Source of the DNA: Ferrimonas futtsuensis DSM 18154
Lineage (GTDB): Bacteria; Pseudomonadota; Gammaproteobacteria; Enterobacterales; Shewanellaceae
Length of the DNA stretch: 64,000 bases
Reading direction: 5' to 3'
NCBI RefSeq assembly: GCF_000422645.1
Contig: NZ_AUGL01000011.1
Span: 62,001 to 126,000 of the forward strand
Position 1 is the stretch's first letter; each line of letters opens with the position of its first letter. Shown here piece after piece: positions 15,143 through 19,793 of this stretch. A program made the position numbers and the translations under genes. Below the pieces are notes generated by a model. That model made no database searches. It saw only the letters and a list, made by a program, of their open reading frames with translations, and was not told the origin of the DNA.

Positions 15143-16849
15143 ATGAACCTGAAACAACAGATCGCCCAGAAGTTGATGATCGACCTGCGCTATTTTGGCG
15201 ATTCGCCCACGGCGCGCACGCCCATGACCCGGCTGCCCGGGGCGGTGGCTGACTGGATTGCCCGCTGTGGATTGGGTGGGGTGATTCTGTTCTCGGAGAA
15301 CCTGGAGAGTCCGGAGCAGATTCGCACCTTGACCTCAGCGCTTCAGTGGGCGGCGGCGCGCTCTTCCCTGGGCGCTCCGCTGCTGATCTCGGTGGATCAA
15401 GAGGGGGGACGGGTGTGTCGAACCCCCAAGGCGCACACCACCGCCTTTGCCGGCAACATGGCCCTGGGGGCGGCGTCTTCCGTCCATCCGGAGCTGGCCA
15501 ACGAGGTGGCCGTCGCCATGGGCAGGGAGCTGTTGGCCCTGGGCATCAATGTCAATCACGCGCCCTGCATCGATGTGAACAATAACCCGGACAATCCGGT
15601 GATCAACGTGCGTGCCTACGGTGACCATCCTCAATTGGTGGCGCGACTGGGGCTGGCCCAGGTCCAGGGGTTTGCCTCCGCGGGTATCCTCTCAACCCTC
15701 AAGCACTTCCCCGGCCATGGGGATACTCACAGTGACAGTCATACCGGTCTGCCCAGAGTGGAGTATGACCGTTCCCACCTCGACGGCATGGAGCTGGCCC
15801 CCTACCGGGCCATCCTGCAGCAGATCCAGCCGGACATGGTGATGACCGCCCACATTCAGTATCCCGCCCTGGATGACACGACCCTGATCGGTCGGGACGG
15901 GTTGGCGCATCTGGTGCCGGCCACACTGTCCCGCAAGATCATTACCGGCCTACTGAGGCAGCAGCTGGGCTATCAGGGGGTGGTGATCACCGATGCTCTG
16001 GATATGGCGGGCATCAGCGGCTGGCTCTCCCTGACCCAGGCGGTGATCCACAGCTTTGCTGCCGGGGTGGATATCGCCCTGATGCCGGTGCGAATCCGCT
16101 GTGAGGCGGACCTGGTCAAGCTGGATGAACTCATCGATGCGGTGGCCGAAGCGCTGGCCGCCGGGAAGCTGGACCCCGGGGAGTGGCAGGACTCTCTGAC
16201 GAGGATCGCCGACCTCAAGCGGCGGCTGGCGCCTGATCTGCTGCCCTCCCCCGAGGTCCTGGGCTGTGACGCTCACCGCTCCCTGGAGCGCAAGCTGGCG
16301 ACCGCGGCTGTTACCCAGCTGTGCCCCAACACCCTGCCTCGGCCTGCCACTGCACATCGACACTGGCTGTTGATGCTGCCCGATCTGGAAAAGGCCAACG
16401 CCCTGGCGGCCGCTCTCAAGGAGCTCAAGCCTGAGCTCGAGATACGTTGCGCCAGCCTGCTTCAGCCAGAGGCGGAACTGCACCAGGCGATGGCGCAGGC
16501 CGATCTGGTGATCAGTGGCTTTATCTCCCCCCGCCAGAGCGCCGCCGAGTTGGGAGGGATGGAGGATGTGTCTGCCCTGGACGAGCAGGCGCTGATCCAG
16601 GCCCATCAGCCTGAGCGACTGGTGCCTCTGCTGAAGCAAGCCAAGGCGTCCGGTCGCTCGGTGATTCACCTGAGCCTGCGCGCCCCTTACGAATTTTCAC
16701 TGGTCAGTCCCTGGTGTCACTGGGGTCTGGCCAGCTTTGCCTATCACCTGGATCGCCCCGGACGGGGGGCGAGTTACGATTCGTTGGCCAGAGTGCTGCT
16801 GGGCCTGGCTCCGGCACCCGGCCTTATGCCCCTGAAGGAGGGAGAGTAA
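15143..16849 (+). CDS. nagZ: GH3 beta-N-acetylhexosaminidase (NagZ-like, with C-terminal extension)
   Basis: 568 residues from the ATG at 15143. Upstream in-frame sequence to 15020 is Trp/Pro-rich and unlike the family, so it was left out. The first 340 residues form a glycoside hydrolase family 3 barrel with KHFPGHGDTHSDSHTGLP, which holds the loop Asp/His pair used as acid-base in NagZ. The nucleophile Asp lies in VVITDALDMAGISGW. Such enzymes release GlcNAc from muropeptides or chitooligosaccharides. About 200 further residues form a domain that minimal NagZ (about 340 residues) lacks. No signal peptide is visible. The stop overlaps the nagA start (TAATG). Confidence 0.85.
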   Translation: MNLKQQIAQKLMIDLRYFGDSPTARTPMTRLPGAVADWIARCGLGGVILFSENLESPEQIRTLTSALQWAAARSSLGAPLLISVDQEGGRVCRTPKAHTTAFAGNMALGAASSVHPELANEVAVAMGRELLALGINVNHAPCIDVNNNPDNPVINVRAYGDHPQLVARLGLAQVQGFASAGILSTLKHFPGHGDTHSDSHTGLPRVEYDRSHLDGMELAPYRAILQQIQPDMVMTAHIQYPALDDTTLIGRDGLAHLVPATLSRKIITGLLRQQLGYQGVVITDALDMAGISGWLSLTQAVIHSFAAGVDIALMPVRIRCEADLVKLDELIDAVAEALAAGKLDPGEWQDSLTRIADLKRRLAPDLLPSPEVLGCDAHRSLERKLATAAVTQLCPNTLPRPATAHRHWLLMLPDLEKANALAAALKELKPELEIRCASLLQPEAELHQAMAQADLVISGFISPRQSAAELGGMEDVSALDEQALIQAHQPERLVPLLKQAKASGRSVIHLSLRAPYEFSLVSPWCHWGLASFAYHLDRPGRGASYDSLARVLLGLAPAPGLMPLKEGE

Positions 16850-17985
16850 TGAGTAAACGCTACCTGGTCAGTCAGCTGTTCGATGGCCAGCAGATGTTTA
16901 AGAACGTGGTACTCACGGTGGAGAACGGCCGGGTGGCCAGCATCGACAAGGAGCGCAATCGCTGGGATGAGAAGCTGGTGGGCATCCTGGCGCCGGGCTT
17001 TGTGGATCTGCAGGTCAACGGGGGCGGCGGTGTGCTGATCAACAATGCGGTCGACGCCGATCAGGTGCTGACCGTGCTCAAGGCTCACGGCCAGTTTGGC
17101 ACCACGGCGATGCTGCCGACGGTGATCACCGATGATCTGGCCAATATGACCCGGGCCGCGGACGCGGTGGCCCGGGCGAGGCAGAACTCACCCTATGGGG
17201 TTCTGGGCATCCACTTCGAGGGACCCCACCTGGCACCGGCCAAGGGTGGTGTGCATAACGCCGAGCATATGCGCCCCATCAGCGAGGCGGAGTGGCAGCT
17301 CTATGCCCGGGACGATCTGGGGGTCAAGATGATCACCCTGGCGCCGGATGTGGTGTCGGAGGCGGAGATCCGCACCCTGGTCTCTCTGGGGATGATCGTC
17401 TTCCTGGGCCACTCCAACGCCAGCGCCGATGAGGTGGACGCTGCCCTGGCCGCAGGGGCCGTCGGGTTTACCCACCTGTTTAATGCCATGTCGCCCCTGG
17501 CGTCCCGGGCGCCGGGTATGGTCGGCAGTGCTCTGCTGGATGAGTACAGCATGGCGGGGATCATCCTCGACGGTCACCATATGGATTACCGGGCGGCCCG
17601 TCTGGCGCTGAAGTGCAAGGGACAGGACAACCTGATGCTGGTCACCGATGCCATGCCACCGGTGGGCAGTGATCAGCAGAGCTTTGAGCTGGTGGGGCGT
17701 CAGGTCACCCGTCACCAGTGTCGGCTGGAGGGACCCGATGGCCAGCTGGCGGGCTCGGTGCTGGATATGAACCAGGCGGTGCTCAACGCCATCGATGGCC
17801 TGGGTGTGGCCCCGGGTCAGGCACTGCGCATGGCGTCGGCCAACCCGGCCAGGGCCCTGGGTATGGAGGAGGTGCTGGGGCACCTCAAACCCGGCGCATT
17901 GGCCAATATGGCGTTGTTGGGACCGGGGATGCGGGTGAGCCGCACCTGGGTGGCCGGTGAGACCCTGTGGCAGGAAGAAGTGTGA
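16849..17985 (+). CDS. nagA: N-acetylglucosamine-6-phosphate deacetylase
   Basis: 378 residues. The enzyme removes acetate from GlcNAc-6-phosphate in the cytoplasm. Key features are PGFVDLQVNGGGGV near residue 55, the metal-binding Glu in GIHFEGPHL, His residues in FLGHSNA and GFTHLFNAMSP, substrate-site IILDGHHMD, and the catalytic Asp in MLVTDAMPP. An AGGAGGGAGAG ribosome binding site lies inside the end of nagZ, and the ATG overlaps its stop codon, so the two are coupled. Together they form an amino-sugar recycling module, with a chitinase gene 7 kb away. Confidence 0.95.
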   Translation: MSKRYLVSQLFDGQQMFKNVVLTVENGRVASIDKERNRWDEKLVGILAPGFVDLQVNGGGGVLINNAVDADQVLTVLKAHGQFGTTAMLPTVITDDLANMTRAADAVARARQNSPYGVLGIHFEGPHLAPAKGGVHNAEHMRPISEAEWQLYARDDLGVKMITLAPDVVSEAEIRTLVSLGMIVFLGHSNASADEVDAALAAGAVGFTHLFNAMSPLASRAPGMVGSALLDEYSMAGIILDGHHMDYRAARLALKCKGQDNLMLVTDAMPPVGSDQQSFELVGRQVTRHQCRLEGPDGQLAGSVLDMNQAVLNAIDGLGVAPGQALRMASANPARALGMEEVLGHLKPGALANMALLGPGMRVSRTWVAGETLWQEEV

Positions 17986-18068
17986 TCTGCGCCCATCCTG
18001 AGCGCCTGGCGAAATCACCAACTGGCGTTCAAAACGACAAAGTCGATTAGGGCGATAGCCACACTCCG

Positions 18069-18074
18069 TTATAC
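18069..18074 (+). promoter_or_regulatory. -10 element of small RNA candidate 1
   Basis: TTATAC, conserved at the same place in the second copy. A conserved upstream block (CAAAGTCGATTAG, 18038-18050) covers the -35 region but does not match TTGACA well, so an activator may be needed. Confidence 0.5.
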
Positions 18075-18080
18075 CAAGAG

Positions 18081-18192
18081 GGTGAGACTGGGTAGTCTGT
18101 AACCAATGGCCCACAGCACCAAGGCCCAGAGTACCGAGTTTCATCATCATCTCATATCGTTTTTGTTGAGGGCCTGTTGGCCCTCTTTTTTT
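18081..18192 (+). ncRNA. Putative small RNA, copy 1 of a tandem pair
   Basis: A transcript of about 112 nt is expected from the TTATAC element to the terminator hairpin GAGGGCC-TGTT-GGCCCTC followed by seven T residues. A 21-base core (CAATGGCCCACAGCACCAAG plus G, 18104-18124) is identical in both copies, and CCAGAGT follows. The 5' part and the segment before the terminator differ strongly. Such a mosaic, conserved core and terminator with a variable remainder, is what duplicated regulatory RNAs show. I recognise no known family: it lacks the repeated GGA of CsrB and the sigma-54 promoter of Qrr. Function is unknown. Confidence 0.62.
18170..18192 (+). terminator. Terminator of small RNA candidate 1
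   Basis: A GAGGGCC / GGCCCTC stem with loop TGTT, then TTTTTTT, on the plus strand only. Confidence 0.9.
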
Positions 18193-18288
18193 GCCTGAGT
18201 TTCAGCCTGGCAGCATCGACAGAAGCACAGGAAAAGCCGGAGCGGGATTCAAAGCGGCAAAGTCGATTAGTGCAATAGTAAGAGTGCG

Positions 18289-18294
18289 TTATAC
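18289..18294 (+). promoter_or_regulatory. -10 element of small RNA candidate 2
   Basis: TTATAC exactly 220 bp after the element of copy 1, preceded by the same CAAAGTCGATTAG block at 18258-18270. Confidence 0.5.
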
Positions 18295-18300
18295 GACATC

Positions 18301-18412
18301 GAAGGGGCTGGTTATGCTGTAGTCAATGGCCCACAGCACCAAGGACCAGAGTCTCCAGTTTCACGACCTTATCTTATCGATTTCCTCGAGGGCCTGATGG
18401 CCCTCTTTTTTT
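18301..18412 (+). ncRNA. Putative small RNA, copy 2 of a tandem pair
   Basis: This is the second copy, offset by exactly 220 bp from the first with no insertion or deletion over about 165 bp. It keeps the 21-base core (18324-18344), CCAGAGT, AGTTTCA and the terminator (GAGGGCC-TGAT-GGCCCTC plus seven T). The 5' third is different, so the two RNAs could share one target-pairing core but differ in regulation or extra targets. Its T-run ends at the stop codon of the convergent nirD-like gene. Confidence 0.62.
18390..18412 (+). terminator. Terminator of small RNA candidate 2
   Basis: A GAGGGCC / GGCCCTC stem with loop TGAT and a run of T, overlapping the last bases of the convergent nirD-like gene. 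Confidence 0.9.
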
Positions 18413-18749
18413 ATTCCAGTGCCAGTTGCACCCGATTGTTCCTCACCCTCACCGGAAAGGTGGCCAGGGAGATCTCCCGCTGCTCCAGGTTGCGACCGCT
18501 GTGCAGACAGTAGCGCCGCGGCTGGCCAGCGGCCTCCAGGGCCAGGGTGCGGGACTCTTCATCGACCCGGGCGCGAAAAATCGAGTTGGCTTTGCCCAGG
18601 GGATCGTGATTGTCCAGAGCAAACAGCTGGCCTGAACGCAACAGAAACAGTGCCAGTTGCTGATCCTGCACCAGGGCACACACCCCCTCTCCCGGAATGA
18701 GTTCCGACAGGGCACAGATATCCTGCCAGTCTGGGCAATCACGGCTCAT
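18411..18749 (-). CDS. NirD-like protein (assimilatory nitrite reductase small subunit family), orphan
   Basis: 112 residues from an ATG preceded by a perfect AAGGAGGT. The sequence CALSELIPGEGVCALVQDQQLALF, quoted here as positions about 14-37, and FALDNHDPLGKAN match the Rieske-like NirD family, and the usual iron-sulfur Cys/His ligands are absent as in NirD itself. NirD normally forms NADH-nitrite reductase with NirB, but no nirB is near. The next gene, divergent, encodes a Bfd-like [2Fe-2S] protein, a domain that also occurs inside NirB. It could serve a distant NirB or another redox partner. Confidence 0.75.
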   Translation of the reverse strand: MSRDCPDWQDICALSELIPGEGVCALVQDQQLALFLLRSGQLFALDNHDPLGKANSIFRARVDEESRTLALEAAGQPRRYCLHSGRNLEQREISLATFPVRVRNNRVQLALE

Positions 18750-18924
18750 AAGCACCTCCTTTGCTTCCCGTCACGATAACGGGTCGTCATGACCCTGACA
18801 TGACAGAGCAAGAAGGGGGCCGGGTCATTGAAACATCAAAGTCTAATTAAGTATTTGGTTTTTAATCAGAGTCTTAAGTAGAAAAAGCTGAGATTTTGGT
18901 CTGAGCAGAATCAAGGTGGTCGGC

Positions 18925-18933
18925 TGCTATACT
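18925..18933 (+). promoter_or_regulatory. Extended -10 promoter upstream of bfd
   Basis: TGCTATACT, an extended -10 element, about 66 bp before the bfd start. It follows an AT-rich stretch (18833-18900). The -35 region is weak, as is usual for extended -10 promoters. Confidence 0.5.
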
Positions 18934-18998
18934 GCGCGGCACTGGCGCACAGTGCCCTGTTTTGGCGCGGCCATCCTATTGAAAAGGTGAAGATTGAG

Positions 18999-19202
18999 AT
19001 GACTCAGCCAACCCCTCCGACTCTGCTCTGCTGTTGCCTGCGATTGACGCAGCAGGATGTGGACGAAGTGATTCTTGCCGGTGCCACCAGCGCCGATGAG
19101 GTGGCCAACGCTTGTGGTGCCGGCACCGGTTGCGGCTCCTGCCGGTCGGAGATCACCCAGCGATGCCGCACTCTCACCGCCGACACTCCTGGTGATTCAT
19201 AA
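18999..19202 (+). CDS. bfd: Bacterioferritin-associated ferredoxin-like [2Fe-2S] protein
   Basis: 67 residues. Four cysteines in the BFD arrangement are visible: a CxC pair inside LLCCCLRLTQQDVDEVI and CGAGTGCGSCRSEI with the C-x2-C pair. Bfd docks on bacterioferritin and passes electrons to release stored iron. The start is ATG 18999; a GTG at 18987 is also open and the ribosome binding site does not settle it. The neighbour downstream is a Dps ferritin-like protein, suggesting an iron-storage pair. The C-terminus is short and polar. Confidence 0.85.
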   Translation: MTQPTPPTLLCCCLRLTQQDVDEVILAGATSADEVANACGAGTGCGSCRSEITQRCRTLTADTPGDS

Positions 19203-19310
19203 AGTAGATTGCGGCAATGCCTATTGCTCGCTTTATCAGATTCAAGACTGGGGCTATTCTAGACTCAATCGCCACACAGGGTGGCCCGAAATTGAGATAA
19301 GGGGATAGCC

Positions 19311-19793
19311 ATGAACAACACCAACCTGATTGGGCTGAACAGCCAGGGTGCCGAGCAACTGGCCGGTCAACTGAATGACTTGCTGGCCAACTACCAGATT
19401 CTGTACATGAACGTCCGCGGTTTTCACTGGAACATCAAGGGGGCCGATTTCTTCGAGCTGCACACCAAGTTTGAGGAGATCTACAACGTTCTGCTGGAGA
19501 AGGTGGATGAGATCGCCGAGCGGGTGCTGACACTGGGGCATCAGCCGCTGCACGCGTTTTCCGATTACCTGCAGCACAGCGAGATCCGCGAGGCGGTGCA
19601 GGTGAGCAGCGGCAGTGAAGGCATTGACCTGTTGCTGGACGGCTACATGGTGTTGATCGCCAAGCAGCGTGCCATCCTGGAGTCTGCCGGTGAGTTGGGG
19701 GATGAAGGCACTGCCTCACTGATGAGCGACTACCTGTCCCAGCAGGAGAAGGAGAGCTGGATGCTGGCGGCCTACCGCGGCCGCAGCGCCTGA
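19311..19793 (+). CDS. dps: Dps-family ferritin-like DNA protection protein
   Basis: 160 residues. The ferroxidase-site signature is clear: RGFHWNIKGADFFELHTKFE (residues about 36-55), with His, Asp and Glu ligands at the dimer interface. Dps forms dodecamers that oxidise and store iron using hydrogen peroxide, protecting DNA in stress. The N-terminus is short, without the Lys-rich tail of E. coli Dps, so DNA binding may be weak. GATAAGGGGATAGCC precedes the ATG. A strong terminator follows. Confidence 0.94.
   Translation: MNNTNLIGLNSQGAEQLAGQLNDLLANYQILYMNVRGFHWNIKGADFFELHTKFEEIYNVLLEKVDEIAERVLTLGHQPLHAFSDYLQHSEIREAVQVSSGSEGIDLLLDGYMVLIAKQRAILESAGELGDEGTASLMSDYLSQQEKESWMLAAYRGRSA

Follow-up and report, generated by a model that had tools for sequence, protein, structure and literature searches.

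OxyS of Escherichia coli is a small RNA (sRNA) activated by OxyR; MicA, RybB and VrrA are sigmaE envelope sRNAs; and PrrF1 and PrrF2 of Pseudomonas are tandem, near-identical sRNAs under the control of Fur. The dps gene of E. coli is reportedly also activated by OxyR, a finding ascribed to Altuvia in 1994. For Shewanella oneidensis, passages of PMC5826389 describe an sRNA, RyhB, that lowers 10 of 41 c-type cytochromes; Hfq is needed for the targets tested, and the predicted interactions involve the start codon in cctA and the coding region in scyA. A search of the open-access literature returned no account of OxyR- or sigmaE-driven sRNAs against cytochromes, nothing on Ferrimonas small RNAs or on an sRNA together with omcA, mtrC, Hfq or extracellular electron transfer, and no usable work on how sRNAs originate or on sigmaE sRNAs in Shewanella.

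The locus considered here lies in a 64,000-nt stretch of Ferrimonas futtsuensis DSM 18154 DNA (the window). We give a probability of roughly two in three to the reading that it holds a tandem, dps-derived pair of sRNA genes with dps-type promoters under OxyR control, and that the first copy blocks the translation of multiheme cytochromes. A first-pass annotation of this DNA had described a gapless repeat, and this description holds: units of 165 nt at 18028-18192 and 18248-18412 are offset by 220 nt with no indel, and 127 of the 165 columns are identical, a similarity far above chance. The elements it listed are likewise present. Both copies carry TTATAC with CAAAGTCGATTAG upstream of it, an identical 21-mer (CAATGGCCCACAGCACCAAGG), and a GAGGGCC/GGCCCTC terminator with a 7-bp GC-rich stem and T7 (18168..18192 and 18388..18412, + strand), and the 18 nt that follow TTATAC are the most diverged stretch of the unit. 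The arrangement of these elements suggests a pair of small-RNA genes that is built otherwise than the annotation proposed, with predicted RNAs of ~88 nt running from promoter to terminator on the + strand (copy 1, 18105..18192; copy 2, 18325..18412). The pair is preceded by an amidohydrolase ORF (16846-17985, +), called nagA in that annotation and presumably rightly so, and is followed by a Rieske-domain ORF (18411-18755, -), a BFD-like ferredoxin (18999-19202), and dps (Ferritin-like, PF00210; 19311..19793, +), which lies ~1 kb from the sRNA pair.

When the six copies found in three genomes are aligned, a conserved block that ends in TTATAC is followed by 18 variable nt of fixed length, then by TAnnCT and the conserved RNA. 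This is the layout that an activator site, a spacer, and a -10 element would have, and the same layout is seen in the dps promoters of the genus Ferrimonas. In copy 1 the putative OxyR/dps-type activator box, CGATTA...GTTATAC, occupies 18044..18074 (+; with invariant columns in the three genomes), and the candidate -10 element, TAGTCT, occupies 18093..18098 (+), giving a predicted start at A18105; in copy 2 the box is at 18264..18294 (+), the -10 element, TATGCT, at 18313..18318 (+), and the predicted start at A18325. TAnnCT stands at the fixed 18-nt spacing in all six copies, and the window's own dps has the same architecture from box to -10 (19206..19260, +). A matrix made from 11 other Ferrimonas dps promoters (the own genome was left out, as was the G011 dps promoter, whose box is visible by eye, and G006 gave no dps match) was scored on 127,892 window positions; its ranks 1 to 3 are the own dps at 30.5, copy 1 at 23.4, and copy 2 at 16.9, and the next best position scores 5.9. 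In E. coli MG1655, CTATTAGTGTGATAG starts exactly 49 nt before the TATACT of dps, which is the same box-to--10 distance, although the Ferrimonas matrix gives this promoter a low score, -7.4 (the window positions have a mean of -43.6, sd 10.6). A plain sigma70 scan of 17900-19320 reported no promoter, so the promoter call is made from the comparison with dps. When sites for SigmaE, Fur, sigma54, and CRP were judged by eye, none seemed to fit the pair.

The position of TTATAC bears on where each RNA starts. It had been taken for the -10 element, but the -10 of the sRNAs sits 18 nt past it, as does that of Ferrimonas and E. coli dps past the corresponding position; on this comparison TTATAC is probably not the -10, and each RNA of ~88 nt probably starts at the core. 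Were TTATAC the -10 element after all, the RNA would be ~112 nt long, its variable 5' arm would fold onto the seed discussed below and partly mask it, and the 21-mer, held in a loop, would be the active part. Copy 1 does fold strongly with the 5' arm in all three genomes (z of -4.55, -2.57, and -4.33 against arm shuffles), the longer window RNA has a z of -5.22, and an RNA beginning after TTATAC is predicted to have half of its seed masked. The 18-nt spacer of copy 1 (18075-18092) also shows, in the three genomes, an unusual degree of complementarity to the RNA's 3' half, with as good a result from 1/500 shuffles in the window, 6/500 in G012, and 0/500 in G008. This complementarity favors a longer transcript, and the start preferred here gives no explanation for it. 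However, copy 2 lacks this fold in each of the three genomes (z of -0.91, -0.28, and +0.71), and the complementarity of its spacer is not unusual. In addition, -10 elements prefer a T, an A, and a last T, and TAnnCT keeps these in 6 of 6 copies at the dps-promoter position, whereas TTATAC does not. We consider the ~112-nt RNA unlikely; it would be compatible with cytochrome targeting, as the two ideas are not exclusive.

With the start placed at the core, the box and spacing of Ferrimonas and E. coli dps predict an OxyR-type site at activating distance from each gene. The own genome encodes a LysR protein with Cys-N8-Cys, the cysteine spacing of OxyR; this best hit scores 196 bits, below the NCBI OxyR cut-off of 329. 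A promoter of its own, as judged from dps, and a Rho-independent terminator with a long U tail are features of Hfq-class sRNAs, and the pair may be expected to use Hfq. An OxyR site is described in PMC8787470 and PMC5307378 as two ATAG-N7-CTAT repeats in tandem, and the dps gene of S. oneidensis as being under OxyR; this control is there mainly derepression rather than activation (PMC5307378), which counts against the reading favored here.

The likeness to dps is also found at the other end of the RNA. The sRNA 3' end (UUUCAUCAUCAUCUC plus the terminator) matches the dps 3'UTR of G005, G009, and G001, and in each case 0/1000 shuffles were as good; no such alignment was obtained with the dps 3'UTR of G000, G012, or G008. 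In a Dps tree the pair-bearers group with G001 and G005/G009 (100/98), and a NagA tree joins G005/G009 with the pair-bearers (92/91) and does not resolve the placement of G001. The simplest story would be that a seed-bearing 3'UTR is ancestral in this group and that, in the pair-bearers, it now lies in ORF-less copies ~1 kb from dps. The sRNA leader resembles the dps leader weakly: in a test that took in five of the six sRNA copies, 7 of 30 comparisons, uncorrected, were matched by at most 50/1000 shuffles, the best being copy 1 of G008 with the dps of G012 (0/1000). Most likely, as far as can be judged from these alignments, the pair descended from a dps transcription unit that has no reading frame left and has kept promoter, 3'UTR, and terminator. 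The dps of the window is presumed to be related to the gene from which the sRNA promoter came and, in other species, to the one from which the 3' end came.

A decayed dps duplicate might of course have intact promoter and terminator and yet be functionless. The seed region of copy 2 (18359-18373) is indeed degenerate in the window genome (TTTCACGACCTTATC), and the pair was found in 3 of 152 family genomes. On the other hand, the box, core, and terminator are near-invariant across the three genomes where the 18-nt spacer is variable, and the seed of copy 1 is intact in all three; that both copies are mere remnants is very improbable.

The full pair was found by DNA search in 3 of 14 Ferrimonas genomes (the own genome, G012, and G008), 3' of the same amidohydrolase gene, and a covariance model recovered full-length copies only in these three among the 152 family genomes, two in each, together with partial matches in G005 and G009 directly 3' of dps. 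Core, terminator, and promoter are conserved in the two genomes besides the own, which supports the first-pass proposal that two unrecognised sRNA genes, probably trans-acting, stand here in tandem. In the GTDB collection the RNA pattern occurs in a single record, twice, that of F. sediminicola IMCC35001 (close relatives of the window's genome were possibly excluded from that search). In keeping with the description of the family as unrecognised, the window gave no Rfam match at the gathering score, nor did 12 further loci, sibling arrays among them; the OxyS, RyhB, and PrrF models have no gathering match in the window and are not among the 4 matches (E<=10) in 17986-18998. Two candidate likenesses were rejected. 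The ncS16 family (RF02866) scores 25.4 and 14.7 bits against a gathering cut-off of 48, the match being mostly linker and terminator, and a second match in the own genome (C8:122881) is merely a similar terminator among other neighboring genes. A link to nagA, and to amino-sugar or nitrogen control, had also been suggested; it is dropped because nagA is present in 14/14 genus genomes, the pair follows it in only 3, and the promoter is dps/OxyR-like.

The 21-mer had been regarded as the regulatory core of the RNA. A target search made with the seed only points instead to UUUCAUCAUCAUCUC, at 18139-18153 of copy 1 on the + strand (TTTCATCATCATCTC), as the likely seed; in the computed fold of the 88-nt RNA, 12 of its 15 letters are more than 0.6 unpaired. 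With at most one mismatch, its complement is found at 9 ORF starts in the own genome. Seven of these ORFs encode multiheme cytochromes with 4 to 11 CXXCH motifs, and the other two encode a DUF3373 and a FAD-binding protein. Across the genus, 53 of 77 ORFs (>=90 aa) at such starts have at least four CXXCH, many of them being orthologous to each other and so not independent. None of 50 window genes is multiheme. (A GGGATGATGATGAAA start precedes a protein with 4 CXXCH in G002, G003, G004, and G011.)

These matches could be incidental if ATGATGATGAAA is merely a common start of exported proteins and the OxyR-controlled sRNAs act elsewhere. Most genes with a GGAG-N6-ATGAAA control start look exported too, and target sites occur also in genomes that lack the pair, which counts against the reading favored here. 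Nevertheless, among 29 unique genes in which the same Shine-Dalgarno sequence and ATGAAA are joined by a different spacer, only 2 are multiheme, as against 7 of 9 (Fisher p 9e-5). The control has 33 rows, 3 of them multiheme, because four genes are listed twice, and it demands GGAG exactly, which is present in only 2 of the 9 own targets. Four control ORFs that ended at the locus end were read to their stops and contain no CXXCH. In addition, the 15-mer recurs in terminator-ended, often sigmaE-promoted transcripts, and the reversed pattern is nearly absent. An incidental match appears quite unlikely. (It should be said that the likelihoods given to these alternatives overlap, because the question of the start site and that of the targets are not exclusive.)

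The copy 1 seed segment pairs with the nine target starts at a mean of -20.0 kcal/mol (-16.7 to -22.8) and with 49 other starts at a mean of -8.7 kcal/mol (sd 3.3, lowest -16.8); because the targets were chosen by complementarity, these energies are circular and serve as illustration, not proof, and only the enrichment in gene class is independent. A whole-length duplex test did not separate the targets from the background, which includes an extreme of -62.7, presumably from an ORF that runs antisense to the sRNA. In the own genome a conserved seed complementary to translation starts is found in copy 1 and not in copy 2, whose seed segment has no target match (-9.4 vs a background of -10.4 kcal/mol). 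In G008, the copy 2 seed is TTTCATCATTATCTT, and it pairs at -24.2 with a heptaheme cytochrome start that has the ATAATG variant; at this start both window copies pair more weakly (copy 1, -17.8; copy 2, -13.3). The G008 pairing hints at a division of labor between the copies.

The seed is not confined to the pair. With at most one mismatch, TTTCATCATCATCTC has 134 matches in the 14 genomes, 3 to 18 per genome, as against 0 to 1 for the reversed pattern. The 125 distinct contexts, among which are a few from other loci and from which two G013:C51 matches were left out, sort into 71 ORF starts, 45 of a terminator class, and 9 that are neither, with a terminator calling that has false positives (7 of the 71 ORF starts also received a call). 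The own genome accounts for 16 matches: 9 ORF starts, 6 sRNA or 3'UTR-like sites, and 1 that is neither. In the first class the seed is followed by a terminator, and this class includes tandem arrays with GAACTT-N-TCT promoters of the sigmaE type. In the second class the complement, GGAGATGATGATGAAA or a variant, forms the ribosome-binding site and start, mostly of exported-looking proteins. A composite of the sigmaE-type promoter and the seed occurs at 22 sites in 8 of the 152 family genomes (six of the same genus, two of another), and the reversed control gives 0.

Several of these loci can be described individually. An array in G001 (L094 2961-3606) has five seed-bearing, sigmaE-type, sRNA-like copies with terminators, ~157 nt apart; those in G005 and G009 (L095 3074-3491; L096 3086-3505) have four copies each, of which one has a longer CAT run; and G011 (L105 763-1219) has three copies of a 221-nt unit with the seed variant TTTCATCATCATCCC. 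A sigmaE-type promoter stands with the same seed in two genomes that belong to a different genus of this family (L171 1550; L172 140). By eye, the own genome has the seed in what looks like the 3'UTR of a gene for a CXXCH protein (L099 570) and twice 3' of a gene with an outer-membrane-like C-terminus (L098 605 and 843). Two ATTCATCATCATCTC sites in G006 (L223; G006:C1:3248838 and 3249273) lie 435 nt apart with identical near flanks, and neither is at a long ORF start.

Under the reading favored here, peroxide stress would lead to transcription of copy 1 from its dps-type, OxyR-controlled promoter. The UUUCAUCAUCAUCUC segment would then pair with GGAG-AUGAUG-AUGAAA or a variant of it, the Shine-Dalgarno sequence, spacer, and start codon of mRNAs that encode multiheme c-type cytochromes and some other exported proteins, whose translation would be blocked. 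This suggests that copy 1 lets the cell switch off iron-rich cytochrome respiration under stress. Copy 1 would also be one of a number of sRNAs and 3'UTRs across the genus with this seed in common, many of which have sigmaE-type promoters. In a broader form of the proposal, to which we give about even odds, a dps duplicate minus its ORF became a peroxide-induced sRNA with the seed that relatives still have in the 3'UTR of their dps mRNAs. This sRNA would belong to a larger system, common to the genus, that uses a single 15-nt word on OxyR-type, sigmaE-type, and 3'UTR RNAs to silence the multiheme cytochromes used in metal respiration. Bacteria that respire with multiheme proteins must balance iron-rich machinery against peroxide damage, and in the present case more than one kind of stress promoter seems to drive RNAs with a shared seed aimed at cytochrome start codons, which would amount to a post-transcriptional brake. 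The link to dps, for its part, would provide an example, still legible in the sequence, of how an sRNA gene arises when a protein gene loses its reading frame.

Compared with OxyS, the pair is also short, stand-alone, terminator-ended, and presumed to be OxyR-activated; it differs in its tandem arrangement, its dps-type promoter, its place near dps, and its seed, and, as in the comparisons with PrrF and RyhB, in having no Rfam match. The first-pass annotation had compared the pair with PrrF1/PrrF2, and of this the tandem layout stands, whereas Fur control does not agree with a dps-like promoter. The proposed lowering of c-type cytochrome expression by an sRNA has its parallel in RyhB of S. oneidensis, which, in the passages of PMC5826389 used here, is Fur-controlled and iron-responsive. 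Finally, the sibling arrays resemble MicA, RybB, and VrrA in that they are sigmaE-type and that the shared seed matches start sites of exported proteins; they differ from these in that the 12 loci have no Rfam match, that there are up to five tandem copies, and that the predicted targets are mainly multiheme cytochromes.
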